From Pseudooceanicola nitratireducens (GTDB lineage: Bacteria; Pseudomonadota; Alphaproteobacteria; Rhodobacterales; Rhodobacteraceae): a stretch of 64,000 nucleotides of DNA. Where the stretch lies: contig NZ_FNZG01000001.1 of assembly GCF_900109195.1 (NCBI RefSeq), forward strand, positions 1,116,001-1,180,000. Direction: 5' to 3'. A model generated the notes under the pieces. The model worked only from the letters and a program-made list of their open reading frames with translations. It was not told the origin of the DNA and made no database searches. Shown here piece by piece: positions 16,131-47,571 of the stretch; position 1 is the stretch's first letter; the number at the start of each line of letters is the position of its first letter. A program made the translations under genes and the position numbers.

Positions 16131-17159
16131 TCAGACCTTGCCTTTGCCCTTGGTGATCGCCGCCAGCCCTTCGACCTTGCGCAGCGCGGCCCCGCTGTCG
16201 ATGCTTTCGCGCGCCATCTCGACACCCGTCCGCAGGTCAGAAGCCTTGCCCGAGACCACCAGCGCGGCGGCGGCATTCAGCAGCACCGCGTCGCGATAGG
16301 CCGAGGCCTCGCCCGCCAGCAGCGCCCGGAAGGCGCGGGCGTTTTCTTCCGGGGATCCGCCCAGGATCGCCTCGAACGGATGCACGGGCAGGCCGGCGTC
16401 CTCGGGGTGCAATTCAACCTCGCGGATGGTGCTGTCTTCCTCCAGCGCCGCCACCCAGGAGACGCCGCAGATCGTCAGCTCGTCCGTGCCGTCCGAACCA
16501 TGCACCAGCCACGCCCGGTCCGACCCGAGCGCGGCAAGCGTTTCCGCCATCGGCCGGATCAGATCACGCGAAAACGCCCCGGTCAGCTGACGCTTGACCC
16601 CGGCGGGGTTGGTCAGCGGCCCGAGAATGTTGAACATCGTGCGGGTGCCAAGTTCCTGCCTGGCAGGCATGACGTGACGGATCGCCGGATGATGCATCGG
16701 CGCCATCATGAAGCCGATGCCGACGGTATCCAGCGCCTCTTGCACCACCTCGGGGCCGACCATGACCTCGATCCCCATATGGCTCAGCGCATCCGCCGCG
16801 CCGGATTTCGACGACAGGTTGCGGTTGCCGTGCTTGGCCACGACCACGCCCGCGCCCGCCACCACAAAGGCCGTCGCGGTGGAAATGTTCAGTGTGCCCT
16901 TGCCGTCGCCGCCGGTGCCGACGATGTCCATTGCGCCGTCGGGCGCGGTGACCGGGTTGCACTTGGCGCGCATGACGCGGGCGGCGGCGGCGTATTCCTC
17001 GACCGTTTCGCCGCGGGTGCGCAGCGCCATCAGCAGCCCGCCGATCTGTGCCGGGGTGGCCTGACCTTCGAACAGAAGGTCAAAGGCGGTCTCGGCCTCG
17101 TCGCGTGTCAGCGCCCGCTCGGGGGCGGCCGCGATCATCGGTTTCAGCGCATCGCTCAT
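16131..17159 (-). CDS. trpD: Anthranilate phosphoribosyltransferase
   Basis: A 342-residue enzyme that joins anthranilate to PRPP. The motifs [17 protein letters not shown] (PRPP loop), [15 protein letters not shown] and [11 protein letters not shown] are family-specific. The Shine-Dalgarno GGAAGGA precedes ATG 17159. It is the first gene of the minus-strand unit; neither trpE nor trpG is immediately upstream, so the anthranilate synthase genes must be elsewhere. Confidence 0.98.
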
Positions 17160-17632
17160 TTTTTGGTCCTTCCGCCGTCAAGTCCCGTTCAAACCGCCGC
17201 TTGGGGCGGCTTTTGCCGCCTATTCGTGGCCAAGGGGCGGTCCCGGGTCAACTGCCTCCGCCATGCCAGCCGAACGGGCCTCTGGCAAGGGGCGGTTTAC
17301 GTGGTATCATGTCTGCGGGCGTGCGCAAATCGCTTTGCCGACCGGGGGTTATCCCTGCGGGTTCGGGGCTGCATTGGGGCCGCATGGAGGCGGCGGGGAC
17401 CGCCCGCAAGGCAGGCGGCGCTGGCTTGCGCCCGCAGCAGGGCGGCCCTAGATGGGGCGCGGCCAATAATGACCGGGCCCGGACCGAGGAAAGGACCGGG
17501 AGCAGGCGGTGCAAAAGATGGGCCCGGGGCAGGGCCCGAAGGGGCACGGGTGCGGGGCAGGGATCCCAGGTGCGCGGGTCCCGGCAGGGGACAGGACAAG
17601 ACCGGCCCGGCCGGCAGAAGGAGAGCAGAGAC
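17160..17632. other. Intergenic region between trpD and the deacetylase gene
   Basis: A 473-base divergent intergenic stretch. The trpD side carries its ribosome binding site and presumably its promoter, with a short hairpin (CCGCC at 17194 with GGCGG at 17205). The rest is strongly G-rich on the plus strand with many GGGCCC-like blocks. A frame is open through it into the deacetylase, but its composition (Arg/Gly-rich) and the lack of motifs argue against coding. I see no RNA gene. Confidence 0.5.
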
Positions 17633-19456
17633 GTGCTACGCGGTATCATCCAGGGGGGGATCTGGGGCTTGGCCCTGGCGCTCGCCATCGGCGCGATCCT
17701 GTCGCTGTCCATTCCCTTGCACCGGTCCGGCCCGCCGACCGCCACGCTGCCCCTGGTGCCCGAGGGCGCGGCCTTTGACGATGCCCGCGCCGATCTGCCC
17801 GTCCGCCTTCCGACCCCGATCGAGGCCCCGGTCAGCCCCGAAGGGCGCGCCGTGACCCAGCCGCAGGGCCCCACGCCCGAAGACACCGCCGCGCTGGACG
17901 CCGATACCCGCACCGGGGGCGAAACGCCCGAACTGGCCGCCCCGGTCGCACCGCTGGCCGAGGCCCCGGATGCCGCGCCTTCCTCCGATGTGGCCGCCCC
18001 TACGCCGATCGCGCCGGTGTTGCCCAGCCCGCAGGCCATGACGCCCGAGGCCCCGGCAGGCGACACGCTTGCCCTGGTCGACCGCGAAACGCCACAGCCG
18101 CCCCGCGCGGCGCCCGATGCGGCGATCACCGGCTTTCCTTCGGCCGATCTGGACGACATGACGGTGACGCCCGCGCCCGACGCGCCGCCCGCCACCGCCC
18201 GCACCCCCGAGGCGCTGCCGCAGACCCCCGCCGACCCGGCGGTTCCCCCGGTGTCCACGGGGCCGGTGTCCACGGGGGATGTCCCTGCGGACAAGGCGCA
18301 GGACACGGGCGAAGAGAGCGCGCCTGCCGCGCTGGATGAGCCCGCCGGTATGGAGCAGCCCACAGAAGAGGCCAGTGCAGAGGCCAGTGATAAATCCGGC
18401 GCTGAAGCCCCTGCGGAACCAAAGGTGTCTGAGACCGCGCCCATTGAGGCCCCCAGCCCAAAGGCGATGACCGAAGCCGCCCCCGCCGACGCAGAGACCG
18501 CGGCACCGACAGCCCCCCCTTCGGCCAGCGCTGATCCTGCGCCACAACCAACTGCCCCGGACACGACGACCGAAGCCGCGCCCGCACGCCCCCGTCTGCC
18601 CACCACCGAAACGCCGATTGAACCCCAGACGGAAACCCCGGCCGAGGATCCCGTGGCCAGAAGCCTGCCCGGCACCCCCGGCATTCGCATCATCGACCGC
18701 ACCGATCCCGCGCCCGAGGCCCCCGAGGTCGCCTTGACAGAGCCCACCCCGGATCCCGCCCCGGCGACGGATACCGCCCCGATCGATCGCTTCGCCGCGC
18801 CCTTCGACAACCCCGAGGGCAAGCCCATCCTGTCGATCGTCATGATCGACGATGGCACTGCCGGCATCCCGCTGCCCGACAGTTTCCCCTATCCGCTGTC
18901 CATCGCGGTGCCGGTCAGCCGCCCCGACGCGCCCGAGGCCATGCGCCGCTATCGCAACGAAGGGCACGAGGTCCTGGCCCTGGTCGACCTGCCCCGGGGC
19001 GCGACCCCGCAGGATCTTTCCGTTGCCGCGCAGGACTGGCTGGCGCGCATGGACCAGGTCGTCGCGGTGATGGAGGCCCCCTCCGCAGAGGGCACCTCGG
19101 CCCTGCAGGCGGGGCGTGCGATCGGGGAACAGCTGGCCTCGATCCTCGAGACCTCGGGTCATGGGGTGCTGCTTTATCCCCAGGGGCTCGACACCACCCG
19201 CAAGCTGGCCAGCCGCAAGGGCGTGCCAGCCGCGACTATCTTCCGCGACCTTGATGCCGAAGGGCAGAATGCATCCGTCATCCGGCGGTTCCTGGACAAT
19301 TCCGCCTTCAAGGCCGGGGTCGAGGGCAGCGTGATCCTGGTCACCCGCCTGCGCCCTGACACGATCGAGGCGCTGCTGATCTGGGGGCTGGCCGACCGCG
19401 CCAGCCGCGTGGCCCTGGCCCCGGTGTCGCATGCGCTGAAGGCCGCCGCCCCCTGA
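17633..19456 (+). CDS. Divergent polysaccharide deacetylase family protein
   Basis: A 607-residue protein. A single N-terminal membrane helix (about residues 5-28) is followed by roughly 350 residues of Pro/Ala/Thr/Glu-rich low-complexity sequence. The C-terminal domain (about residues 390-605, from KPILSIVMIDDG) resembles the YibQ-type divergent polysaccharide deacetylases. It is probably inner-membrane anchored with the domain in the periplasm. GTG 17633 is chosen because AAGGAG lies 9 bases upstream and the membrane helix begins there; a longer open frame reaches back to 17048. The linker may span the cell-wall layer. Confidence 0.8.
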   Translation: MLRGIIQGGIWGLALALAIGAILSLSIPLHRSGPPTATLPLVPEGAAFDDARADLPVRLPTPIEAPVSPEGRAVTQPQGPTPEDTAALDADTRTGGETPELAAPVAPLAEAPDAAPSSDVAAPTPIAPVLPSPQAMTPEAPAGDTLALVDRETPQPPRAAPDAAITGFPSADLDDMTVTPAPDAPPATARTPEALPQTPADPAVPPVSTGPVSTGDVPADKAQDTGEESAPAALDEPAGMEQPTEEASAEASDKSGAEAPAEPKVSETAPIEAPSPKAMTEAAPADAETAAPTAPPSASADPAPQPTAPDTTTEAAPARPRLPTTETPIEPQTETPAEDPVARSLPGTPGIRIIDRTDPAPEAPEVALTEPTPDPAPATDTAPIDRFAAPFDNPEGKPILSIVMIDDGTAGIPLPDSFPYPLSIAVPVSRPDAPEAMRRYRNEGHEVLALVDLPRGATPQDLSVAAQDWLARMDQVVAVMEAPSAEGTSALQAGRAIGEQLASILETSGHGVLLYPQGLDTTRKLASRKGVPAATIFRDLDAEGQNASVIRRFLDNSAFKAGVEGSVILVTRLRPDTIEALLIWGLADRASRVALAPVSHALKAAAP

Positions 19457-19614: not shown

Positions 19615-21084
<1,470 letters not shown>

Positions 21085-21108: not shown

Positions 21109-21146
21109 AAAGGCGGCGGCGATCCTGGATCGCTGCCGCCTTTTGC
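21109..21146 (+). terminator. Terminator of guaB
   Basis: A 16-base stem with one G-T pair (AAAGGCGGCGGCGATC with GATCGCTGCCGCCTTT) around a short loop, then TTTTG. It also separates guaB from the convergent IclR gene. Confidence 0.9.
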
Positions 21147-21178: not shown

Positions 21179-21970
21179 CTAGGCCGAGGGTTGGGTCGGC
21201 ACCGACTTTTCGGCGCAATAGGCCATCAGCATCTTCAACTCGGGCGAGCCGGGCATCCGCGTCTCGGGCGCAACCCCGATCAAAGAGATCACGGCCTGCG
21301 CTTCGTCCTGCCAGTCAAGGATGGGCGCGGCGATGGCCACAAGGCCGGGCACGAACTGACCGTCGACCGAGGTATAGCCATCCGCGCGCGCCTTGGTTGT
21401 CAGCTCTCTCAGTCCTGCGCGGGTGGCGGGGACATCGGGCAGAAGCGACGGGTTGCGCGCGGCGCGGCGCAATTCCTGTTCACGGATCCGGTCGATGGCA
21501 CCGTCGGGGGCCCAGGCCAGAAACGCCCGGCCGGTGGCCGAATTCAACAGCGGCAGCGTTGTTCCCAACCCCATGGAGGTCACCGCAGGCGATGCCCCGC
21601 GTTCCCATCTGACGACCGTCGCGCCGTCATTCCCCCAGACCGACAGAAGCACCGTCATGCCGGACCGCCGCGCCAGATCCGGCAGATCTTCGGCCGCATG
21701 GTTGACGAAATCATGCCGCGCCAGGGCGGCAAGACCCAGGTGGATCGCCTCTTTGCCCAGGTCATACAGGCCCGAACGGCCGTGCTGCTGCGCCAGTCCC
21801 GCCGCCACAAAAGAGGCGAGGTAGCGATGCACCTTGCTTTTGGGCATGCCGCTGGCGCGTGCGATATCCGACAGCGACTGTGCCCCGTCGGCCCGCGCCA
21901 TCTGTGCCAGCACCCCAAGTGCCGCATCCAGCGATTTCAGCCCCGGGCCGCTACTTTCTGCATCAGCCAT
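21179..21970 (-). CDS. IclR-family transcriptional regulator
   Basis: A 263-residue regulator. An N-terminal winged helix-turn-helix (about residues 10-70, SLSDIARASGMPKSKVHRYLASF) precedes an IclR effector-binding domain (about 80-255). ATG 21968-21970 has GAGGAGGG upstream; a longer open frame exists but reads through the thioesterase gene. It overlaps the thioesterase stop by 8 bases. It is divergent from the aromatic catabolic operon starting at 22459 and is the likely regulator of it, probably responding to an aromatic acid or its CoA ester. Confidence 0.9.
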   Translation of the reverse strand: MADAESSGPGLKSLDAALGVLAQMARADGAQSLSDIARASGMPKSKVHRYLASFVAAGLAQQHGRSGLYDLGKEAIHLGLAALARHDFVNHAAEDLPDLARRSGMTVLLSVWGNDGATVVRWERGASPAVTSMGLGTTLPLLNSATGRAFLAWAPDGAIDRIREQELRRAARNPSLLPDVPATRAGLRELTTKARADGYTSVDGQFVPGLVAIAAPILDWQDEAQAVISLIGVAPETRMPGSPELKMLMAYCAEKSVPTQPSA

Positions 21971-22370
21971 CTGTGCCCTCCTCGAGAATCTTCCGCACCG
22001 CATCCATGGGGGCTGCAAATACACCGCGCTCACCGGTCTTGAAAAGGCAGCGCACCTCGGTTGCCTCGAAGGCCAGCCGGGATCCGACGTGGCCGGTGTA
22101 GCGAATCGTAACCGACCGCGGGCCCCATTTTTCGATCTCAAGCGTGACGCGCAGCAGGTCCCCGTCGGTGAGAGGAGAGCGGAATTGCGCATCCGCACTG
22201 GCCAGCCCCAGCCCCTTCGCATCCAGTTTTTCACACAAAATTGCGTGGCCTTCGAAATTTTTTAGAAGGTCGTGAAAGGTGGCGTCAATCCAGCGGAAGG
22301 TGTTGGGATAAAATGAAATACCGGCTGGATCACAGTCTCCGAAACGGACGTTAAAGCTGGATTCATGCAT
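21963..22370 (-). CDS. Hotdog thioesterase of the 4-hydroxybenzoyl-CoA thioesterase type
   Basis: A 135-residue hotdog-fold thioesterase. The motif VRFGDCDPAGISFYPNTFRW closely matches 4-hydroxybenzoyl-CoA thioesterase, with the catalytic Asp at residue 14. ATG 22370 is chosen because this motif sits right after it. Given the adjacent aryl-CoA ligase and CoA-thioester hydroxylase, the inferred job is to release gentisate from gentisyl-CoA. It is translated with the IclR gene (8-base overlap), divergently from the main operon. Confidence 0.88.
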   Translation of the reverse strand: MHESSFNVRFGDCDPAGISFYPNTFRWIDATFHDLLKNFEGHAILCEKLDAKGLGLASADAQFRSPLTDGDLLRVTLEIEKWGPRSVTIRYTGHVGSRLAFEATEVRCLFKTGERGVFAAPMDAVRKILEEGTDG

Positions 22371-22414
22371 TTCGATTGTTCCAAATAGTGATTGTGTTTG
22401 CGTAATGATGAACG

Positions 22415-22429
22415 TTAAGTGTGCCTTAA
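22415..22429. promoter_or_regulatory. Inverted repeat in the divergent catabolic promoter
   Basis: TTAAG-TGTGC-CTTAA is a 15-base inverted repeat placed 30 bases before the FAD hydroxylase start, in the 88-base gap between the two divergent units. It could be the IclR operator. It also reads as TTAA-N7-TTAA, the CtrA consensus, so its assignment is open. Confidence 0.5.
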
Positions 22430-22458
22430 GCAAGCGTGGAGACACTGGGGGAGGAACC

Positions 22459-23601
22459 ATGGGACAGCTCGCGACAGTCGACATTCTGGGTGGGGGTCCG
22501 GCTGGGCTCTATACAGCGATCCTGCTGCGTCGGCGGATGCCACATGTGAACGTCCGCGTGACCGAGCAGAACCCCGAAGGCGCGACCTTTGGCTTTGGCG
22601 TCGTCTTCTCGGATCAGGCGTTGGAATTCCTGCGCGCCGACGATCCCGAGACCCATGACCTGATCCTCCCGCATATGGAGCGGTGGCGGAACATGACGCT
22701 GAACCTGCCGGGCGACAGTGTCACGCTGGATGGGGTGGGTTTCACCGCCATCGGGCGGCTTGAACTGATCGAGATCCTCAAGGACCGGGCCCGCGGCCTG
22801 GGCGTCGACATCCGCTTTGCCACCCAGATCGCGGATCTGAGCCAGTTGGATGGTGACCTGATCGTTGGTGCGGATGGTCTGAATTCGCTGGTCCGGCGCA
22901 GTCTGGAGGCTCAGTTCGCCCCGAAGATGGAGTTCTTCGACAACCACTTCGCCTGGTTCGGGGCCACGGTGCCCTTCGATACGCTGACCCAGACGTTCAT
23001 CAAGACGCAGCACGGTCCGATGAACGCGCACCATTACCGGTTCGCGCCCGACCGCTCGACCTTTATCGTTGAATGCGAGGATGCGACCTACAAAGCCTGG
23101 GGCTTTGACGGCATGGACGAGGACGAGAGCGCGCGCCTGTGCAGCGACCTATTCGCCGATGTGCTGAAAGGCACGCAGTTGATCACCAACAAATCGATGT
23201 GGCGGCAGTTTCCCCGGCTGTGGTGCGAGACCTGGGTGTCGGGGCGCTATGCGCTTCTGGGGGATGCGGTCCATACGGCGCATTTCTCGATCGGGTCGGG
23301 AACACGCCTGGCGCTGGAGGATGCCATCGCCCTGGTCGATGCCCTGGCGGAATTCGACGATGTGGACGCGGCGCTTGCAGCCTATCAGGATCGCCGCCCG
23401 CCGATCGCCCACAAGATTGTGCGCGCCGCCAATACCTCGGCCAGCTGGTACGACGGTTTTGGGGCCAAGATGCACTTGGAACCGCTTGATTTCGCGCATG
23501 ACTACCTGATGCGCTCGGGTCGGATGACGGAAGACAGGCTGCGCCAGATCGCGCCGGGCTTTGCCGCCCGATACGAGGCCGAAAAGGCCGCTGTCGGCTG
23601 A
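22459..23601 (+). CDS. FAD-dependent aryl-CoA hydroxylase, salicylyl-CoA 5-hydroxylase-like
   Basis: A 380-residue flavoprotein monooxygenase. The N-terminal Rossmann motif is DILGGGPAGLY (residues 8-18) and the second FAD motif ALLGDAVHTAHFSIGSG has its GD at residues 268-269. Length and pattern fit the single-domain flavoproteins that hydroxylate aryl-CoA thioesters: SdgC-type salicylyl-CoA 5-hydroxylase and the N-terminal half of anthraniloyl-CoA monooxygenase. ATG 22459 follows GGGGGAGGAACC. It is the first gene of the operon, followed by an aryl-CoA ligase and, further on, gentisate dioxygenase, which favours 5-hydroxylation of salicylyl-CoA to gentisyl-CoA. Confidence 0.85.
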   Translation: MGQLATVDILGGGPAGLYTAILLRRRMPHVNVRVTEQNPEGATFGFGVVFSDQALEFLRADDPETHDLILPHMERWRNMTLNLPGDSVTLDGVGFTAIGRLELIEILKDRARGLGVDIRFATQIADLSQLDGDLIVGADGLNSLVRRSLEAQFAPKMEFFDNHFAWFGATVPFDTLTQTFIKTQHGPMNAHHYRFAPDRSTFIVECEDATYKAWGFDGMDEDESARLCSDLFADVLKGTQLITNKSMWRQFPRLWCETWVSGRYALLGDAVHTAHFSIGSGTRLALEDAIALVDALAEFDDVDAALAAYQDRRPPIAHKIVRAANTSASWYDGFGAKMHLEPLDFAHDYLMRSGRMTEDRLRQIAPGFAARYEAEKAAVG

Positions 23602-23667
23602 AGGGCCATCCGCCCGCATGGCGGATCACCTGAAATGAACTGGCCTGAAATGGACTGGGAGGATTCA

Positions 23668-25302
23668 ATGTCGGTAAACACGGCACAGGTTTTTGCGACC
23701 TCGATCAAGGACCCGGTCGGGGATGATGTCCCCGGCGCAGCCGAGATCGGCTTTGATCGCGCGGCGCATGCCAATTGCTCGGACATCCTGTGGCAGAACC
23801 TGTCACGCAACCCAAATGCGCTGGCCGTCACCGGCCCTCAGGGCAACCTGACCTATGCCGAGCTGATCGCCCAGGCCGCTAAATGGGGCCAGGCATTCAC
23901 GGCCCTCGGGCTGGCGCGGGGCGAAAGGATCGCCTTTTTCCTTGATGATACGCCGGCCTTTCCCGCGGCCTTCTTCGGGGCGGTGCGTGCGGGCTTTGTC
24001 CCGGTGCTGCTGAACACCCAGACCCCGGCCGAGGTGCTAAATTATTTTCTGGTCGACAGTGGCGCGCGCTATGCGCTGGTGGATGCCGATGCCTCGGGGA
24101 TCTTCACCGGGGCGACGGTTGCGGGCACCGCCCTGACCACCACGATCGTGGTCAATGGCGCGCCTGTGCAGGATGGCCATGTCGCGGCTGCGGATATCCT
24201 GGCCGACCGCCCCGACACGCTGGACTGCGCCGACACGGGCCCGGACGACATGGCCTTCTGGATGTATTCCTCGGGCTCGACCGGGCGGCCGAAGGGGATC
24301 GTCCACCTGCACCATGACGCGGGCTATATTCAGGACAGCTTTGGCGCGAAGGTGCTGAAGCTGACGCCGCAGGACATCTGCTATTCCGTGCCAAAGGCCT
24401 ATTTCGCCTATGGGTTCGGCAATTCCATGGTCTTTCCCTTTGCCGTTGGGGCCGCAGTTCTGCTGATGCCGGGCCAGCCGCGTCCCGAGGTGGTGCTGGA
24501 TGCCATCGAAGCCTACCGGCCCACGGTACTGTTCGGGCTGCCGACGCTGTACACCGCCGTCGCCAAATCCGATGGTGTGACGTCCCGCGATCTGTCGTCG
24601 ATCCGGCAATCGATGTCCGCCGCAGAAACGCTGTCGGCAGACATCTATTCGGCCTGGAAGGATCTTGTGGGTCACGGTCCGACCGAGGGGCTCGGCTCGA
24701 CCGAGATGTTGCACATCTACCTGTCGAACATGTTGGACGATCACCGGATCGGAGCCGCCGGCGCACGCGTTCCCGGGTATGAGATCCGGTTGGAAACGCC
24801 CGAAGGCCAGACCGCCAAATCGGGGGAAGAGGGCGTGATGTTCGTGCGCGGCCATTCCTCGGCTCCGACCTATTGGAACCGGCCCGACAAGACCGCCGAC
24901 ACGATGCGCAGAGACTGGATCTATACCGGGGACCGTTTCATCGAGCGGGACGGATTTTATTACTTCCAGGGCCGCGCCGACGACCTTGTGAAGGTCTCCG
25001 GGCAATGGGTCTGGCCGCTCGAGGTCGAACGCTGCCTGAACGAACACGCGGATGTCTACGAATGCTGCGTTCTGGCCGAACAGCAGGCCGATCGGCGCAC
25101 CGTGCTGCGCGCCGTTGTGGCGCTGCGTGACGGGGCCGAGGCGGGCGCGCCGCAGGTCAAGCTGCTGCGCGACTACGTCAAATCCGTCCTGACCCCCTAC
25201 AAATCGCCCAAGCTGGTCGAATTCGTTGCCGAACTGCCCAAGACCGGCACCGGCAAGATCGACCGCCAGGCGCTGATCCGGCCCGTCGCGGCCGCCGAAT
25301 AA
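23668..25302 (+). CDS. Aryl-CoA ligase (benzoate-CoA ligase family), probable salicylyl-CoA synthetase
   Basis: A 544-residue acyl-adenylate-forming enzyme. The P-loop YSSGSTGRPKG spans residues 200-210. The hinge motif GRADDLVKVSGQWVWPLEVE and the catalytic Lys530 in TGTGKIDRQ are intact, so both adenylation and thioesterification are expected. The overall pattern is that of benzoate/hydroxybenzoate-CoA ligases. ATG 23668 is chosen (GGGAGG upstream) over ATG 23635. It lies 66 bases after the hydroxylase gene. The substrate is inferred as salicylate from the pathway; benzoate or anthranilate cannot be excluded. Confidence 0.87.
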   Translation: MSVNTAQVFATSIKDPVGDDVPGAAEIGFDRAAHANCSDILWQNLSRNPNALAVTGPQGNLTYAELIAQAAKWGQAFTALGLARGERIAFFLDDTPAFPAAFFGAVRAGFVPVLLNTQTPAEVLNYFLVDSGARYALVDADASGIFTGATVAGTALTTTIVVNGAPVQDGHVAAADILADRPDTLDCADTGPDDMAFWMYSSGSTGRPKGIVHLHHDAGYIQDSFGAKVLKLTPQDICYSVPKAYFAYGFGNSMVFPFAVGAAVLLMPGQPRPEVVLDAIEAYRPTVLFGLPTLYTAVAKSDGVTSRDLSSIRQSMSAAETLSADIYSAWKDLVGHGPTEGLGSTEMLHIYLSNMLDDHRIGAAGARVPGYEIRLETPEGQTAKSGEEGVMFVRGHSSAPTYWNRPDKTADTMRRDWIYTGDRFIERDGFYYFQGRADDLVKVSGQWVWPLEVERCLNEHADVYECCVLAEQQADRRTVLRAVVALRDGAEAGAPQVKLLRDYVKSVLTPYKSPKLVEFVAELPKTGTGKIDRQALIRPVAAAE

Positions 25303-25338
25303 GTCACTGAATTGAGGATGCATAAGGGAGGAACCACA

Positions 25339-26316
25339 ATGGCATTCATCAAGATCAACACCCGGGGCGCACTGGCCGCCGCCGCGCTGACCCTCATCGG
25401 CGGCATGGCATCGGCGCAGGTCTCGTCCTTTTCGACCCCGCCGCAGGGATCGGTTTGGAACACCATGGCCACGGTGATTTCCGGGCAGGCCCGTGAAAGC
25501 GGCGGCGGGCGCTTCGTCGTGCAGCCCTATGGCGGCAATGCCCAGATGATGCAGGCGGTGAACGACAAGCTGGCCGAATTCTCGCTGAACGACGTCAATG
25601 ACGTCATCACGGCGGTCAGCGGCACCGGCGAATACACCATGTCCATGCCCGAATTGCGCGTGGTGGCTCGGATCAACCCCTTCCCGGTCGGGCTGTATGT
25701 CAAGGAAAGCAGCGGCATGACCTCGGTCGCGGATCTGGCGGGCAAAAGCGTGCCGTCGGGCTGGGATGCCTTCCCGATTGCGCGGGCGCATATCTCGGCG
25801 ATCCTGGCGGCGGGCGGACTGACCTGGGACGACGTCAAACAGGTGCCTGTGCCGGAACTGATCCGGGGCTCTGACGACATGGCGTCTGGACGGGTCGACA
25901 GCGCGTTCTTCGCCCTCGGCGGTCCCAAGGTGGCCGAGGTGGATGCCTCGGTCGGGGGCGTGCGCTTTCTGACGGTCGAGGCCAATGACGACACCCTGGC
26001 CGCGATCCAGAAGGTGCGGCCGGCCTTCTATTTTGCCGATATCGAACCGGCCCCGGTCCGCGTCGGCGTGAAGGAACCTATGGCCTTTGTGACCTGGGAC
26101 AATGTGCTGGTCGCCGGGGCGCATGTCTCGGACGATCAGGTCAAGGCGCTGATGGCGGTGATCTTCGATCAGCGTGATGCCATCGCAGGGGCCTATCCGC
26201 CGCTTGGCGCGATCAATCTTGAGACCGCCTACAAGGCCTATCCCGGTGTCGATTATCACCCCGGTGCCATCGCCTTTTTCGAAGAGCGCGGCGTGACCAT
26301 GGCCCCGGCCAACTAA
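25339..26316 (+). CDS. TAXI-family TRAP solute-binding protein
   Basis: A 325-residue periplasmic receptor. A Sec signal peptide ends at ASA-Q (cleavage after residue 26). The mature part has the TAXI pattern: VWNTMATVISGQARE, GGNAQMMQAVNDKLAEFSLNDV, and a late GAYPPLGAINLETAYKAYPGVDYHPGA segment. ATG 25339 has AAGGGAGGA upstream. It pairs with the fused TRAP permease downstream and, by context, captures the aromatic acid or its ester for the gentisate route. Confidence 0.88.
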   Translation: MAFIKINTRGALAAAALTLIGGMASAQVSSFSTPPQGSVWNTMATVISGQARESGGGRFVVQPYGGNAQMMQAVNDKLAEFSLNDVNDVITAVSGTGEYTMSMPELRVVARINPFPVGLYVKESSGMTSVADLAGKSVPSGWDAFPIARAHISAILAAGGLTWDDVKQVPVPELIRGSDDMASGRVDSAFFALGGPKVAEVDASVGGVRFLTVEANDDTLAAIQKVRPAFYFADIEPAPVRVGVKEPMAFVTWDNVLVAGAHVSDDQVKALMAVIFDQRDAIAGAYPPLGAINLETAYKAYPGVDYHPGAIAFFEERGVTMAPAN

Positions 26317-26387
26317 GGCCCCGCGCCTGACACTGAAGGGGGCGGGCCCGCAGGCCCCCCCCGCACATTCGCCCAGGAGGAGCCAAG

Positions 26388-28331
26388 GTGAGCGAAGTGA
26401 GCGATATCGGACCCCAGGGACCCCGACCCAGCCCCGTTGTGGCCGGTCTGGCCGGTCTGCTGACGATTGCGGCCGTGGTGCAGGCGGCGGATCTGCCGTC
26501 CCGTCTGGGCTATTCCTATTATACAGAACAATTCCTGGCGCTGGTGCTGGGCCTTAGCCTTGCTCTGGTTTTCCTGATGCCGCGCCGCGACTGGGATCAG
26601 CCCGGCGGCATTGCCGCCCCGCGCCTGATCGACTGGGCGCTGTCCGGCCTGGGACTGATCCTTGGGCTTTACATCATGGTCTTCTATCCCAGCCTGGTCG
26701 GCCGGGCGATGTCACTGCCCTGGGACGCGCTGATCGTCGGGGGCGCGATGTTCCTTCTGGTGCTTGAGGGGCTGCGCCGCACCGTTGGCTGGACGCTGGT
26801 CATCGTTGTTCTGGTGATCGTCGGCTACGGGCTGATCGGCCACCTTGTCCCCGGTGCCTTGCAGACCCGAGAGGTCGCGGCCCCGCGCATGGCCGTCTAC
26901 CTTGCCTTCGATCCAAACGGCGTTCTGGGCCTGACCCTTGGGGTCGCGGCCACTGTGGTCGTCGCTTTTGTCTTCTTTGGTCAGCTCCTGCTGCGCTCGG
27001 GCGGGGCGGATTTCTTCAACGATATCGCCATGGCCTCCATGGGGCACCGGCGCGGCGGCGCGGCCAAGATCTCGATCGTGGCTTCGGGGCTTTTCGGCTC
27101 GATCTCGGGGGTGGTGGTGTCGAACATCGTGGCCACCGGGGTCGTCACCATCCGGCTGATGATCCAATCGGGCTTCCGGCGCACCACCGCCGCCGCGGTC
27201 GAGGCCGTCGCATCGACCGGGGGGCAGATCGCGCCGCCCGTCATGGGGGCCGTGGCCTTCCTGATGGCCGACATCCTGCAACGGCCCTACAGCGAAATCG
27301 TCGTGGCCGCCATCGTGCCTGCGCTGCTGTACTACGTGGCGCTGTTCGTGCAGGCCGACCTGCAGGCTGCCAAGCAAAACATCGTGCCGCTGGACACGTC
27401 GGACATGCCCGCCACCGGGCCGGTCCTGCGCCGGGGCTGGGTCTTTATCCTGCCCTTCGCGGCAATCATCATCGCGCTTTTCTGGATGAACCAGCGGGCC
27501 GAGACGGCCGCGCTTTGGGGTGGGGCTGGGGCGCTCTTTATCGGGCTGTTCCTGGGCTACGGCAAAACCCGCATGGCGCTGCGCGATCTCTGGGATGCTG
27601 CTGTCGAAACTGGCCGCTCCATCACCGAGATCATCATGATCTCGGCCGCCGCAGGCTTCATCATCGGTGTGCTCAATGTGACCGGACTGGGCTTTGCCGC
27701 CACCTTTGCGCTGGTCGATCTGGGGCAGGGCAGCCTGTTCCTGCTTCTGCTGATCTCGGCGCTGGTCTGTCTGGTGCTGGGCATGGGCATGCCGACGGTC
27801 GGGGTCTACCTTCTACTGGCCGTGCTGATCGCGCCGTCACTGGTCGAAACCGGGGTCGAGCCGATCGCCGCGCATCTGTTCATCTTCTACCTCGGCATGA
27901 TGTCCATGGTGACGCCGCCCATTGGCATCGGGGCGTTCTTCGCTGCGTCCATCGCCAAGGCCGGCCCGATGTCCACCGCCTGGGAAGCGATGCGCTTTGG
28001 CTGGACGGCCTATATCGTGCCCTTCCTCTTCGTCTTTTCGCCGGCGCTTTTGCTGATCGGCGAACCGGGCGACATCGCGCTTGCGGTCTCGACCGCTGTG
28101 ATCGGGGTCTACGCGGTCTCGGCGGCCTTCGTCGGCTGGCTGCGGGGCCCGATCGCCACGCCGCTGCGCCTGGCCACAGGCGCTGCCGGCGTCGCCCTGA
28201 TGCTGCCGCCCGGCGTGGGCGGTGCGCATACCCTGTGGATCAACGGTGCGGGTTTCCTTCTGCTGGCCGCGCTCTGGCTGATGGCCGGGACCCGTCCGTC
28301 GCCCGCCGCCGCCCCCGTTTCCGACACCTGA
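26388..28331 (+). CDS. TRAP transporter permease, fused 4TM/12TM
   Basis: A 647-residue membrane protein joining the small (DctQ) and large (DctM) TRAP subunits, the usual form for TAXI systems. About four N-terminal helices (residues 15-160) precede the DctM core with motifs such as GLFGSISGVVVSNIVATG and LVLGMGMPTVGVYLLLA. It uses the ion gradient to move substrate delivered by the binding protein. GTG 26388 is preceded by CAGGAGGAG. It sits between transport and ring-cleavage genes of the same operon. Confidence 0.92.
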   Translation: MSEVSDIGPQGPRPSPVVAGLAGLLTIAAVVQAADLPSRLGYSYYTEQFLALVLGLSLALVFLMPRRDWDQPGGIAAPRLIDWALSGLGLILGLYIMVFYPSLVGRAMSLPWDALIVGGAMFLLVLEGLRRTVGWTLVIVVLVIVGYGLIGHLVPGALQTREVAAPRMAVYLAFDPNGVLGLTLGVAATVVVAFVFFGQLLLRSGGADFFNDIAMASMGHRRGGAAKISIVASGLFGSISGVVVSNIVATGVVTIRLMIQSGFRRTTAAAVEAVASTGGQIAPPVMGAVAFLMADILQRPYSEIVVAAIVPALLYYVALFVQADLQAAKQNIVPLDTSDMPATGPVLRRGWVFILPFAAIIIALFWMNQRAETAALWGGAGALFIGLFLGYGKTRMALRDLWDAAVETGRSITEIIMISAAAGFIIGVLNVTGLGFAATFALVDLGQGSLFLLLLISALVCLVLGMGMPTVGVYLLLAVLIAPSLVETGVEPIAAHLFIFYLGMMSMVTPPIGIGAFFAASIAKAGPMSTAWEAMRFGWTAYIVPFLFVFSPALLLIGEPGDIALAVSTAVIGVYAVSAAFVGWLRGPIATPLRLATGAAGVALMLPPGVGGAHTLWINGAGFLLLAALWLMAGTRPSPAAAPVSDT

Positions 28332-28355
28332 ACGACCAAAGACAAAGGATATCCC

Positions 28356-29051
28356 ATGAGTTTCGTCATCGACCCGCCCAAACAGGCCAGCGTTGCTGTC
28401 GCAGGGACGGACGCCCGTTTCCCTGTCCGCCGCATCTTCTGTGTGGGCCGCAACTATGCCGCCCATGCGGTCGAGATGGGCAAGGACCCAGAGCGCGATC
28501 CGCCCTTCTTCTTCACTAAACCCGCCGATGCCGTTGTCGAAAGCGGTGAAACGGTTGTCTATCCGCCCGAAACCGGGAACTTCCACTACGAGGCCGAGCT
28601 GATCGTCGCCATCGGCACCGGCGGCACCGCCATCACCGAGGACAAGGCGCTGGAACACGTCTGGGGCTATGCCGTCGGCAATGATCTGACCCGCCGGGAT
28701 CTGCAGCTGCAGGCCCGCGAACAGGGGCGTCCCTGGGACTGGGGTAAGGCCTTTGACCGCTCGGCCGTGATCGGCCCGGTGCATCCGGCATCTGAGGTCG
28801 GCCATGTGGCTTCGGGGGCGATCACCCTGTCGGTCAATGGAGAGACCCGGCAGAACAGCGACCTGGCCAAGCTGATCTGGTCCGTCCCCGAGATCATTTC
28901 GATCCTGTCCCAGTCTATCGCGCTGGCCCCCGGTGACTTGATCATGACCGGCACCCCCGAGGGAGTCGGCCCGCTGGTTCCCGGCGACACCTGCGTGGTC
29001 GAGATCGCGGGACTTGGCCGGATCGAGACACCGATCGCCCCGCGCGACTGA
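28356..29051 (+). CDS. FAH-family hydrolase, probable fumarylpyruvate hydrolase
   Basis: A 231-residue fumarylacetoacetate hydrolase-family enzyme. The core motif RIFCVGRNYAAHAVEMG is followed by the metal ligands Glu79 and Glu81 (HYEAELIVAIG) and Asp110 (GYAVGNDLTRRDLQ). In gentisate pathways the NagK-type member of this family splits fumarylpyruvate into fumarate and pyruvate. The neighbouring maleylpyruvate isomerase and gentisate dioxygenase fit that step. It starts 24 bases after the permease. Confidence 0.88.
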   Translation: MSFVIDPPKQASVAVAGTDARFPVRRIFCVGRNYAAHAVEMGKDPERDPPFFFTKPADAVVESGETVVYPPETGNFHYEAELIVAIGTGGTAITEDKALEHVWGYAVGNDLTRRDLQLQAREQGRPWDWGKAFDRSAVIGPVHPASEVGHVASGAITLSVNGETRQNSDLAKLIWSVPEIISILSQSIALAPGDLIMTGTPEGVGPLVPGDTCVVEIAGLGRIETPIAPRD

Positions 29052-29153
29052 CCCCATTCAGGCAGCACACCGCCCCCGGGCAAGCCAGACAGGCCAGCTG
29101 GGGCCGGTGTCAACAAGGCCATAGTCAAAGGCCACACTATAAGGGAGGACACC

Positions 29154-29876
29154 ATGAAATTCGTATTGGTACACGGAGCGGCCCACACGGGTGCCCATTT
29201 TGACAAGGTCGCAGAGATCCTGCGCACAGAGGGGCATCAGGTCTGGTGCCCGACGACCAAGGGCAACCGGGCGGGCGATGACCCGACCAAGGTCACGCTC
29301 GACGATGCCATCGGCTCGGTCGTGGATCTGTTCGAGGAGGAAGAGATCGACGATGCGGTGCTGCTGGGGCACAGCTGGGGCGGCATGGTCATCACCGGCG
29401 TCGCGGACCGTCTGGCACCGGGCCGGATCCGCCGTCTGGTCTACTACAGCGCCTTCGTGCCCAACAACGGCGAAAGCCTGATGGATATGGTGCCGCCCCA
29501 TTACGCCGCCATGTTCCAGGAGATGGGCGATGCGAGCGGCACCGTCGGCTTCCCGTTCCCGATCTTCCGCGAAGCCTTTATGAACGATGCCTCTTTGGAA
29601 GACTGTCAGCACCATTTCGACACGCTGGTTCCGCAGCCCTTCCGCACCATGGCCGACAAGATAGTCCTGTCGACCGATCCCGCGGCAATGCAGATCGGCA
29701 AAAGCTTTCTTCTGATGAATGAAGATATCTCTCAGCCCGCGTCCTACCCCTGGCACCCCCGCCTGTCGGAAAAGCTGGGCCTGTATCGCTTGGTCGCCAT
29801 GCCGGGCAGCCATTCGACCTTTGCCACCAACCCCGAGGGGCTGGCGCAGAAGATCGTCGAAGCAGGGCGGGACTAA
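29154..29876 (+). CDS. Alpha/beta hydrolase, SABP2/hydroxynitrile lyase-like
   Basis: A 240-residue alpha/beta hydrolase. An N-terminal FVLVHGAAHTG oxyanion strand, the nucleophile elbow GHSWGGM (Ser74) and a late PGSHST (His220) give the catalytic set. The compact form, beginning directly with MKFVLVHG, recalls plant methyl salicylate esterase SABP2 and related bacterial esterases. In this operon the simplest role is hydrolysis of a salicylate ester to feed the ligase, but that is inference. AAGGGAGGA precedes the ATG. It ends 6 bases before the isomerase gene. Confidence 0.75.
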   Translation: MKFVLVHGAAHTGAHFDKVAEILRTEGHQVWCPTTKGNRAGDDPTKVTLDDAIGSVVDLFEEEEIDDAVLLGHSWGGMVITGVADRLAPGRIRRLVYYSAFVPNNGESLMDMVPPHYAAMFQEMGDASGTVGFPFPIFREAFMNDASLEDCQHHFDTLVPQPFRTMADKIVLSTDPAAMQIGKSFLLMNEDISQPASYPWHPRLSEKLGLYRLVAMPGSHSTFATNPEGLAQKIVEAGRD

Positions 29877-29882
29877 GACGAC

Positions 29883-30530
29883 ATGGATCTCCGGCTGCAC
29901 AATTTCTTCCGCTCTTCCACCTCGACCCGCGTGCGGGCGGCGCTGAACCTCAAGGGGCTGCCCTATGAGTATGTTCCTTACGTCCTGCGCGACGGGGAAA
30001 CCCGCACGCCGGCCTATCTGGGGCGCAATCCCCAAGGGCTTGTGCCGACGCTTGAACGGGGGGACGGCGTGAACCTGACCCAGTCGCTGGCCATCATCGA
30101 ATGGCTGGACGAGGTGCAGCCGGAACCGCCGCTTTTGCCGCGCGATCCCGACGACCGGGCCTGGGTCCGGTCGCTGTCCTACATGATCGCCTGCGAAATC
30201 CACCCCCTGAACAACCTGCGCGTTCTGTTCCGCCTGTGTGATCAGTTCGGGGCCGATGACGAAGCCCAGAAAGAGTGGTTTACCCATTGGGTCAGCCTGA
30301 CCTTCGACGCCCTCGAAGACGCACTGGCCAAGGATCCGCGCAGCGGGCGCTGCTGTTTCGGGGACACGCCGACCATGGCTGACGTCTGCCTGTATGCGCA
30401 GGTCTGGAACAACCGGCGCTTTGCGATCCCGCTGGATCGCTGGCCGACGATCCGCACCATTTTTGAACATCTCGAAACGCTTCCCGCCTTTGCAAAGGCC
30501 GCGCCGCCGCGCCAGCCCGACGCCGCCTGA
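29883..30530 (+). CDS. Maleylpyruvate isomerase, glutathione S-transferase (zeta) type
   Basis: A 215-residue GST-fold enzyme. The zeta-class active-site loop FFRSSTSTRVRAALN has Ser11-Ser12-Thr13 for glutathione thiolate stabilisation, and NPQGLVPTLE and LTQSLAIIEWLDE contribute the glutathione site. By homology with NagL/MaiA it isomerises maleylpyruvate (or maleylacetoacetate) to the fumaryl form. Between a fumarylpyruvate hydrolase and gentisate dioxygenase, maleylpyruvate is the likely substrate. It starts 6 bases after the alpha/beta hydrolase. Confidence 0.9.
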   Translation: MDLRLHNFFRSSTSTRVRAALNLKGLPYEYVPYVLRDGETRTPAYLGRNPQGLVPTLERGDGVNLTQSLAIIEWLDEVQPEPPLLPRDPDDRAWVRSLSYMIACEIHPLNNLRVLFRLCDQFGADDEAQKEWFTHWVSLTFDALEDALAKDPRSGRCCFGDTPTMADVCLYAQVWNNRRFAIPLDRWPTIRTIFEHLETLPAFAKAAPPRQPDAA

Positions 30531-30564
30531 CCCCACCACCCGGCCCGCATCTGAAAGGACTACC

Positions 30565-31668
30565 ATGAACGAGCAGCTGACCCACGACACCGTCGCGCAT
30601 TCCATGCAACCCAACGATACGCCCGAACTTCGCGCGCTATACGACAGCTTTGACAAGCTCTCGATCATGCCGCTCTGGACGCAGCTGGGCGATCTGATGC
30701 CGGTACATCCCAAGTCCAAGGCAGTGCCCTATCTGTGGCGCTGGTCCGACCTGCTTCCGCTGGCCGAAAAGGCCGGCGAACTGGTGCCCGTGGGGCGCGG
30801 CGGCGAACGTCGGGCGCTTGGTCTGGCCAATCCGGGCCTTGCGCCGAATGCCTATATCTCACCGACGCTCTGGGCGGCGATCCAATACCTTGGCCCACGC
30901 GAAACCGCGCCTGAACACCGCCATTCCCAGAACGCCTTCCGCTTTGTGATCGAAGGAGAAGGCGTCTGGACCGTCGTCAACGGCGATCCGGTGCGCATGT
31001 CGCGCGGCGACCTCTTGCTGACCCCGGGCTGGCATTTCCACGGCCACCACAACGACACCGATCATCCCATGGCCTGGATCGACGGGCTGGACATCCCCTT
31101 CAGTCAGCAGATGGACGTGGGCTTTTTCGAGTTCGGATCGGACCGGGTAACCGATTATGCAACGCCGAATTATTCGCGCGGGGAACGGCTGTGGTGCCAT
31201 CCCGGCCTGCGGCCCCTGTCGCAGCTGCAGGACACCGTGTCTTCGCCGATCGGGGCCTATCGTTGGGAATATACCGACCGCGCCCTGACCGAACAGCTGC
31301 TGCTTGAGGACGAAGGCGTGCCCGCCACCGCAGGCCAAGGGCATGCCGCCATCCGCTATACCAACCCGACCACCGGCGGCGATGTCATGTCGACGATCCG
31401 CTGCGAATTCCACCGTCTGCGCGCCGGGGTCGAGACACCCCTGACCCATGAAGTCGGATCCTCGGTCTTCCAGGTCTTCGAAGGCGAGGGCAGCGTGGTT
31501 CTGAACGGCGAGACCCGCAAGCTTTCCAAAGGGGACATGTTCGTGGTGCCTTCGTGGATTTCGTGGCAGCTGCAGGCCGAGACGCAGTTCGACATCTTCC
31601 GTTTCAGCGATGCCCCGATCATGGAGAGGCTGAACTTCATGCGCCGCAAGACCTCGGACCCCGCATGA
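30565..31668 (+). CDS. Gentisate 1,2-dioxygenase
   Basis: A 367-residue bicupin Fe(II) ring-cleavage enzyme. The N-terminal cupin gives metal ligands His118 and His120 (PEHRHSQNAFRFVIEGEG) and His159 (GWHFHGHH), with the 2- and 39-residue spacing of known gentisate dioxygenases. The second cupin (LTHEVGSSVFQVFEGEGSVV) lacks this triad. ATG 30565 has AAAGGA upstream; the open frame extends back into the isomerase gene. Salicylate 1,2-dioxygenases are close relatives, but the CoA-ligase and hydroxylase upstream make gentisate the natural substrate. Its stop overlaps the next start (ATGA). Confidence 0.93.
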   Translation: MNEQLTHDTVAHSMQPNDTPELRALYDSFDKLSIMPLWTQLGDLMPVHPKSKAVPYLWRWSDLLPLAEKAGELVPVGRGGERRALGLANPGLAPNAYISPTLWAAIQYLGPRETAPEHRHSQNAFRFVIEGEGVWTVVNGDPVRMSRGDLLLTPGWHFHGHHNDTDHPMAWIDGLDIPFSQQMDVGFFEFGSDRVTDYATPNYSRGERLWCHPGLRPLSQLQDTVSSPIGAYRWEYTDRALTEQLLLEDEGVPATAGQGHAAIRYTNPTTGGDVMSTIRCEFHRLRAGVETPLTHEVGSSVFQVFEGEGSVVLNGETRKLSKGDMFVVPSWISWQLQAETQFDIFRFSDAPIMERLNFMRRKTSDPA

Positions 31669-32186
31669 GCGATACGGCAGCACAGCAGGCCCTGAGGGCG
31701 CGACAGGGGGCGGGGGCCCGTTACGATGCGCCTTCGGCCCCGGCGGGGGATCTTTTGCTGGCGCGTAGGGGCACAGCCTATTTCGCCCGCCTTTTGAACG
31801 GTCTGCGGGATGAGGACCTGACCCCGCAGCGGCGGCAGGTCATTGCCCGCGTCAGCCTTCAGGCCCGCGCCATGGCCCTTGCGGTCAAGCATCTGCGCGC
31901 CCCCCTGAACGAGGAAGAAACCGACTGGCACCCGGATCCCGAGATGACCGTGACCCTGCCGGCCCATGCGCTGCGTTATCTGTTCGACCACGCCCAGATC
32001 CATCTGAACGTGGAGTGGCGGGACACGCGGGACGCGGATTGGGACGGCACGGTGGTTTTTCCCGGTTGGATCGATGCCCCGGCGCGGCAGGTGCCGCTGA
32101 TCCGGGCCCGCGCGATCTGGCACGCCGCGCTGGAGCTTGGGGCAGGGGGCAAGGCCCAGGACCTGCCCGAGGGCTTGGAGCCCTAG
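31665..32186 (+). CDS. MDMPI/DinB-like protein, degenerate maleylpyruvate isomerase homologue
   Basis: A 173-residue protein I relate to the mycothiol-dependent maleylpyruvate isomerase N-terminal family. Support comes from its order of features: a four-helix start (RGTAYFARLLNGL, ARVSLQARAMAL), a W-x-G middle (WDGTVVFPG) and the ending VPLIRARAIWHAALELGAGGKAQDLPEGL. The zinc ligands of that family (His in the helix-2 HVxxH segment, and Glu and His in the RxREVxxHxxDL segment) are replaced: Gln/Arg at the first site and Ala/Ala at the second. A metal-dependent isomerase reaction is therefore doubtful. It is coupled to gentisate dioxygenase by an ATGA overlap. Confidence 0.6.
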   Translation: MSDTAAQQALRARQGAGARYDAPSAPAGDLLLARRGTAYFARLLNGLRDEDLTPQRRQVIARVSLQARAMALAVKHLRAPLNEEETDWHPDPEMTVTLPAHALRYLFDHAQIHLNVEWRDTRDADWDGTVVFPGWIDAPARQVPLIRARAIWHAALELGAGGKAQDLPEGLEP

Positions 32187-32205
32187 GCCAAGGTCTCAGC
32201 AAAGA

Positions 32206-32237
32206 AAACGGCCGCCCCGATCAGGGCGGCCGTTTCG
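32206..32237. terminator. Terminator closing the gentisate operon
   Basis: AAACGGCCGCCC (32206-32217) pairs perfectly with GGGCGGCCGTTT (32224-32235) around a 6-base loop. The A and T flanks make it usable for both the catabolic operon and the convergent ABC operon. Confidence 0.92.
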
Positions 32238-47451: not shown

Positions 47452-47571
47452 CCTGTCCCCGTCGCCTGATGTTCCCCGGATCCGGCCCTTCATATCGTTC
47501 CACGCCCCAAGAGGAAGGCTTTTCCTTGCGCCCCGCCCGCTGTATGCCCGCCAAAAATACCGGAGCCGCCC

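Follow-up and report, generated by a model that had tools for sequence, protein, structure and literature searches.

A probable CehGHI-type operon for salicylate catabolism through coenzyme A esters, with a linked TAXI-TRAP importer, in Pseudooceanicola nitratireducens

In Rhizobium sp. X9, salicylate is reportedly converted to gentisate through coenzyme A (CoA) esters by the ligase CehG, the hydroxylase CehH and the thioesterase CehI. A CoA-mediated mechanism for salicylate in this alphaproteobacterium is announced in the title of Zhou et al. 2021, and a salicylate route in Streptomyces sp. WA46 is credited to Ishiyama et al. 2004 (cited in PMC13215587). Here we describe an eleven-gene island in Pseudooceanicola nitratireducens (assembly GCF_900109195.1, contig NZ_FNZG01000001.1, positions 1,116,001 to 1,180,000; this stretch of 64,000 nucleotides is referred to as the window). 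The island, at window positions 21179-32186, very probably forms an operon that degrades salicylate through CehGHI. It resembles the CehGHI system of strain X9, with which it is compared by gene names, in having the ligase, hydroxylase and thioesterase of the CoA route; in the window these lie in one block with an IclR-family regulator, a TAXI-TRAP importer and the genes of the lower pathway. The strain WA46 route, compared by description, differs in being actinobacterial.

Family scans and the list of open reading frames (ORFs) gave the following features.

21179..21970, minus strand: IclR-family regulator (PF09339 and PF01614 over cut-offs)
21963..22370, minus strand: hotdog thioesterase, CehI-like, putative gentisyl-CoA thioesterase (4HBT family; PDB matches; 48% identity to a cehI relative)
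22377..22414, no strand: predicted IclR operator in the divergent promoter, a pair of imperfect palindromes at a distance of about 21 bp (matrix scan)
22459..23601, plus strand: flavin adenine dinucleotide (FAD) hydroxylase, CehH-like, putative salicylyl-CoA 5-hydroxylase (76.6% identity to RefSeq cehH)
23668..25302, plus strand: aryl-CoA ligase, CehG-like, putative salicylate--CoA ligase (TIGR02262; ORF opens at 23635)
25339..26316, plus strand: TAXI periplasmic binding protein of a TRAP importer (TIGR02122, PF16868)
26388..28331, plus strand: fused TRAP permease (TIGR02123, 537.1 bits, over cut-off)
28356..29051, plus strand: FAH-family hydrolase, probable fumarylpyruvate hydrolase of NagK type (PF01557, 208.7 bits)
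29154..29876, plus strand: alpha/beta hydrolase, accessory, possible salicylate-ester esterase (PDB match 6tj2)
29883..30530, plus strand: GST, putative maleylpyruvate isomerase of NagL type (PDB matches 2v6k and 2jl4; TIGR01262)
30565..31668, plus strand: ring-cleaving bicupin enzyme from the clade of salicylate dioxygenase, carrying Ala106, predicted gentisate type (2phd and 3nst matches)
31665..32186, plus strand: MDMPI-like protein lacking the metal ligands (family profile against 2nsf)

In the proposed scheme, the TAXI-TRAP importer would take up salicylate or a closely related compound, the ligase would convert salicylate to salicylyl-CoA, and the FAD enzyme would hydroxylate this ester para to the 2-hydroxyl group to give gentisyl-CoA, from which the hotdog thioesterase would free gentisate. 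The dioxygenase would then open the gentisate ring to give maleylpyruvate, the GST would isomerise maleylpyruvate to fumarylpyruvate, and the FAH-family hydrolase would split the latter into fumarate and pyruvate. The divergent IclR regulator would control both transcripts through the tandem palindromic operator, and the alpha/beta hydrolase may be an accessory enzyme, perhaps releasing salicylate from esters. All substrates in this scheme, including the importer's cargo and whatever the alpha/beta hydrolase acts on, and the effector of the regulator we infer from homology.

The hydroxylase is 76.6% identical to proteins named cehH by RefSeq on plasmids of Salipiger abyssi and Agrobacterium. 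These cehH genes adjoin cehG, and the Agrobacterium plasmid also carries cehI, all by RefSeq names; further close relatives of the hydroxylase have generic names only. Its best NCBIfam match, NF006101, scores 380.6 bits, under the cut-off of 1078, and that model has 768 positions, twice the length of the protein. The ligase scores 468.3 bits with TIGR02262 (benzoate-CoA ligase family), over the cut-off, and is 72% identical to a RefSeq cehG product. For the thioesterase, the best PDB matches are the 4-hydroxybenzoyl-CoA thioesterases 5wh9 and 1bvq, and the GDCDPAGI motif of 1bvq is preserved. A hotdog-fold gentisyl-CoA thioesterase has been described in a gentisate cluster of Bacillus halodurans (PMC516016). 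The three genes are clustered, and each is related to RefSeq-named CehG, CehH or CehI (72%, 77% and 48% identity, respectively), which by gene content places the island in the CehGHI group. An earlier reading of the sequence alone (the sequence-only reading) had proposed a CoA-dependent route from salicylate to gentisate in an alphaproteobacterium, and the relatives named cehG, cehH and cehI support it; the importer and lower-pathway genes that it saw linked in one block are likewise confirmed by family scans. Novelty of the route for alphaproteobacteria finds no support, given the title of the 2021 paper on strain X9 and the ceh names in RefSeq. No salicylate 1-hydroxylase exceeded the cut-off in the genome (best 114.8 against 446.35 bits), a search that did not extend to the free-salicylate 5-hydroxylase NagGH. 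The same genome encodes a second flavoprotein relative of 40% identity (G000:C16:573909-575033, locus L002) in an open frame of 785 codons; it is probably a two-domain protein such as NF006101 describes, and perhaps of the 2-aminobenzoyl-CoA type.

Islands of this kind were surveyed in 84 loci (handles beginning with L), consisting of the best 80 of at least 579 relatives from one scan plus four plasmid loci. Eleven of the 84 are core islands, with hydroxylase, ligase and a dioxygenase of the same clade as that of the window. Some of their contigs are short, and among the eleven the IclR gene is found in 11, the thioesterase in 9, the FAH gene in 10, the GST in 9 and the MDMPI-like gene in 10. 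Plasmid islands of Pseudosulfitobacter, Phaeobacter, Nitratireductor and Sulfitobacter have the same genes in the same order as the window, TAXI-TRAP included, but have no annotated alpha/beta hydrolase; Pseudosulfitobacter plasmid p3, for example, shares ten of the window genes and lacks that one. The Phaeobacter and Sulfitobacter islands add a universal stress protein. The idea that the block is unusual finds no support, since such islands occur on plasmids of Pseudosulfitobacter, Nitratireductor and Phaeobacter. The suggestion to look for the gene order elsewhere proved fruitful: it recurs on replicons of other genera, and the arrangement is therefore beyond chance. A decayed island is present on plasmid pRlX1 of Rhizobium ruizarguesonis (L009); its hydroxylase frame is interrupted by a stop, and its ligase gene is broken into pieces separated by IS66-type genes.

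The ring-cleavage dioxygenase scores 724-726 bits against 2phd and 3nst, compared with 202 and 184 bits against the gentisate dioxygenases 2d40 and 3bu7; 2phd is presumably the Pseudaminobacter salicylatoxidans enzyme. By sequence, the protein belongs with salicylate 1,2-dioxygenase, apart from the classical gentisate dioxygenases. Alignment places Trp104, Ala106 and Asp174 in the protein together with His119, His121 and His160, which we take to be the iron ligands. The three histidines and Asp174 are the residues sought in a gentisate 1,2-dioxygenase, and Ala106 stands where Gly106 was sought for a salicylate 1,2-dioxygenase. The combination of Trp104, Asp174 and Ala106 is also found in all 13 other members of the clade (those of the 11 core islands, L097 and L107). 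The Pseudaminobacter salicylatoxidans salicylate 1,2-dioxygenase, under which name 3NW4 appears in PMC11109138, is a close relative of the window protein but has Gly106. According to the same source, which draws on Ferraroni et al. 2013, an enzyme with Gly in this place accepts several substrates and one with Ala accepts gentisate only, and the G106A variant oxidises gentisate alone (PMC11109138). Trp104 and Asp174 are described as contacting the 5-hydroxyl group of gentisate (PMC10306065). A pattern accepting Gly or Ala gave 31 matches, spread over 31 of 390 genomes from the order and counting the genome of the window, with Ala in 31 and Gly in none, although four identical matches (WAAMQYLHP) may be another protein and variants can escape the pattern. 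At an E value of 0.001 the dioxygenase is the only one of its clade in the genome. The enzyme should act on gentisate, the predicted product of the CoA steps, and Ala106 is therefore in keeping with the CoA route and counts against direct cleavage of salicylate. Of the earlier label "gentisate dioxygenase", the activity is expected from Ala106, but the clade is that of salicylate dioxygenase and not the classical one. Gly106 was at first taken to distinguish the salicylate enzyme from every gentisate dioxygenase, an idea discarded when the alignment revealed Gly106 in classical enzymes with Tyr or Phe at position 104 as well; the argument from residue 106 is therefore valid only inside the Trp104 clade.

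For the steps after ring opening, the GST exceeds the cut-off of the maleylacetoacetate-isomerase-type model TIGR01262, and its nearest solved structures are the maleylpyruvate isomerases 2v6k and 2jl4 (E about 1e-58). In L097 (Burkholderiales) and L107 (a Pseudomonadota metagenome-assembled genome), genes for a Trp104/Ala106 dioxygenase and an FAH protein precede a hydroxylase relative in another gene order. The MDMPI-like ORF by itself matched no Pfam family even at E 10 and gave one meaningless NCBIfam match. A profile of its family matches the Corynebacterium structure 2nsf at E 6.9e-34, and at E 0.1 a match to MDMPI_N is seen for 10 of the 11 members of the family, which bears out the homology noted earlier. 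The metal site is gone, however: at the positions that we take to be the metal ligands of mycothiol isomerase (His52, Glu144 and His148) the window protein has R, A and A. Among the 11 family members, the first His occurs in 3, the Glu in 1 and the second His in 3, and none has all three; L047 ends before the last two positions, and the sequence of 2nsg is itself changed at the first. The protein is thus unlikely to be a working mycothiol isomerase, and it was dropped as a candidate for a second isomerase on account of the lost ligands, leaving the GST as the likely isomerase.

An IclR gene is present in 11 of 11 core islands, at the far end of the island in L050. The promoter alignment comprises the window and 15 chosen relatives, and the operator matrix was built from 14 islands, with the window and L011 (a copy of L046) left out. 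With this matrix, the window site ranks first of 127,926 positions on both strands; it scores 19.6 bits, and the best site that does not overlap it reaches 4.3. When 21 held-out loci were scanned, the top site in 13 lay 67-94 bases before the hydroxylase gene, with scores of 27.8-55.1 bits; the promoter site was second in L050 (28.3 against 30.5 bits), L083 had a weak site at -43, and no site of note was found in the decayed L009 or in L051, L052, L056, L058 and L075. Shared ancestry contributes to this conservation. Binding of the IclR protein to the motif is a prediction, as is the direction of regulation. Two Phaeobacter plasmids have a second strong copy of the operator (L173:15819, 37.2 bits; L180:15819, 35.6 bits) some 120 bases upstream of an aldehyde dehydrogenase gene, which heads a pair with a GMC oxidoreductase gene and adjoins the island. 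This second operator would fit feeding of the pathway from salicylaldehyde or its alcohol.

Several observations weigh against the CehGHI assignment. The CehG, CehH and CehI names come from the RefSeq naming of relatives, not from the published CehGHI sequences, and the thioesterase is no more than 48% identical to its RefSeq cehI relative (L007). Five ligase residues, at BadA positions 226, 227, 228, 333 and 334, whose role we assume, are identical to those of benzoate-CoA ligase, so that salicylate is not singled out. The dioxygenase scores 262.5 bits with the NCBIfam gentisate equivalog TIGR02272, under the cut-off of 442.1, and the window operator, at 19.6 bits, scores below all 13 held-out islands. 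In Alcaligenes aquatilis QD168, which encodes a homologue of SdgC (40% identity to the Streptomyces protein), growth on salicylate was reportedly absent (PMC6460240), and such annotations can therefore mislead.

Other substrates have to be weighed against salicylate. If 3-hydroxybenzoate were activated and hydroxylated para to its hydroxyl group, gentisyl-CoA would again be the product, and the ligase does score 366 bits with the 3-hydroxybenzoate-CoA ligase model. That score lies far under the cut-off of 1000, whereas the benzoate-CoA ligase family model is passed, and the nearest relatives carry the names of salicylyl-CoA enzymes; 3-hydroxybenzoate is very unlikely to be the substrate. It is similarly hard to favour a substituted salicylate or a salicylate ester as the true substrate, freed by the alpha/beta hydrolase and then degraded by the same route. 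The position of the hydrolase gene within the operon points that way, as does a weak match (E 5.2e-8, residues 3-106) to salicylic acid-binding protein 2, which in plants is a methyl-salicylate esterase. The gene is shared with the Aureimonas island L050 but is missing from the other 10 of the 11 core islands, and the best PDB match of its product, 6tj2 (E 4.5e-46), has only a generic name. Direct cleavage of salicylate by the dioxygenase, with the CoA genes serving another acid, was raised by the match to 2phd and is favoured by the 724 bits to the Pseudaminobacter salicylate dioxygenase against 184-202 bits to classical gentisate dioxygenases. It was rejected on Ala106, in view of the gentisate-only activity reported for G106A (PMC11109138), and the GST and FAH genes would fit maleylpyruvate, making this explanation barely credible. 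Salicylate degraded through salicylyl-CoA and gentisate thus stays the preferred reading.

The binding protein (TIGR02122) and the fused permease (TIGR02123) both exceed curated cut-offs, identifying the importer as a TAXI-TRAP system. Few cargoes of TAXI proteins are known to us. Of 37 matching plasmid records, 26 hold a relative of the TAXI protein at 56-84% identity and the remaining 11 one at about 36% or less; in all 26 the gene lies in a Ceh cluster or in a cluster for polycyclic aromatic hydrocarbons (PAH) and gentisate. The annotated neighbourhoods of nine records comprise six Ceh islands and three PAH clusters, where FAH and GST genes come after TAXI-TRAP. In the other 17 (16 from Pseudosulfitobacter and one from Sinorhizobium sojae), coordinates place the CehH-like and TAXI genes about 1.8 kb apart on one strand, a gap expected from a ligase gene between them. 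Near-identical copies of a single plasmid make up 17 of the 26 records, which brings the independent cases down to ten organisms. One of the records at about 36% was examined and has an unrelated gene context. The PAH clusters, in Sagittula MA-2, Actibacterium and Neorhizobium petrolearium, have the TAXI-TRAP-FAH-GST cassette in common with the window but no annotated CoA ligase or CehH-like gene within 9 kb on each side, their neighbours being of PAH type. Among the core islands, 4 of 11 have TAXI and TRAP genes, as do L006, which lacks a clade dioxygenase, and L075, which has a classical dioxygenase and another gene order. TAXI-TRAP is common in these islands yet optional. Judging from gene context, the cargo may be salicylate or gentisate. 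The PAH version occurs in Sagittula MA-2, for which growth on both compounds is stated as data not shown (PMC11705938). In the literature on TRAP systems with salicylate or gentisate, a table in the relevant paper assigns the TAXI genes no function.

In 14 of the 84 loci (L008:13253-15997, L041-L050, L052, L053 and L093) ligase and hydroxylase form a single open frame, with 908-1036 codons between stops. The Nitratireductor island has the fused form too, as an annotated gene of 2751 bp (L175:6050-8800), and in Sulfitobacter CB2047 a stand-alone hydroxylase occurs together with a fused gene. The fused frame is a probable bifunctional enzyme for activation and hydroxylation of salicylate, and the fusion in relatives ties the two steps together. 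Literature searches, mostly aimed at other questions, turned up no paper on a fused ligase-hydroxylase. In trees of 40 hydroxylase rows (chosen from the 84 loci) and 28 ligase rows, the window proteins each nest among fused proteins; seven Bradyrhizobium rows were left out of the ligase tree, and the separate pairs of Phaeobacter and Pseudosulfitobacter out of both. Holding the fused rows together was rejected by the approximately unbiased (AU) test: p-AU was 0.004 (hydroxylase) and 4e-78 (ligase), or 0.006 and 0.0003 once Sulfitobacter was removed. These values presume that the group was defined in advance. If only the well-supported branches are considered, three changes are required in the ligase tree and one in the hydroxylase tree, and the hydroxylase evidence is therefore the weaker. 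The Sulfitobacter arrangement suggests a route of splitting in which a second hydroxylase gene came first and the fused domain was then lost, but repeated fusion is still conceivable. It is a tentative proposal, put slightly below an even chance, that two things hold jointly: that TAXI-TRAP is a dedicated importer of salicylate or gentisate, which moves between islands of the CoA route and of the PAH route in one cassette with the genes for fumarylpyruvate hydrolase and maleylpyruvate isomerase, and that the separate ligase and hydroxylase were split from a fused bifunctional enzyme.

The gene order and strands agree with those described before for 21179-32237, a span borne out by the family scans. 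Refined starts are 21970 for IclR, 22370 for the thioesterase, 22459 for the hydroxylase, 25339 for TAXI, 30565 for the dioxygenase and 31665 for the MDMPI-like gene, and the ligase probably starts at 23668, with GGAGG upstream. The IclR and thioesterase genes overlap by 8 bases. On the 5' side, the neighbour is an IMP-dehydrogenase-like gene (19636-21084, named guaB from sequence), separated from the island by a terminator-like hairpin at about 21110-21145 seen by eye; on the 3' side, it is a peptide-type ABC importer on the opposite strand. Upstream of the guaB-like gene, at 17048-19456, is a long proline/alanine-rich ORF whose C-terminal part resembles, by eye, a divergent polysaccharide deacetylase. 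The guaB-like gene is found in 22 of 22 genomes of the genus, and 21 other genomes of the genus yielded no hydroxylase relative above 42% identity at E 1e-60. In one relative (G161) synteny ends at the guaB-like gene, with 38 kb beyond it compared; in G158 it resumes about 4.4 kb past that gene, at window position 47561, and in G152 about 10.9 kb past it, compared with 26.5 kb in the window. Positions 21085-47560, about 26 kb holding the catabolic genes, the peptide-type ABC importer and haem-uptake-type genes, are absent or different in these three relatives, and the block is therefore variable DNA there.

Since the route was already known, the find is mainly one of good annotation. The block nevertheless yields testable predictions on the importer, on the switch, for which an operator of the IclR regulator is offered, and on the history of the hydroxylase and ligase. 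A natural Ala106 relative of salicylate dioxygenase could serve as a control for what permits salicylate cleavage, and the fused ligase-hydroxylase would allow study of how a CoA ester moves from one active site to the other. If the proposal on the importer is true, a cargo would be assigned to a group of TAXI importers.

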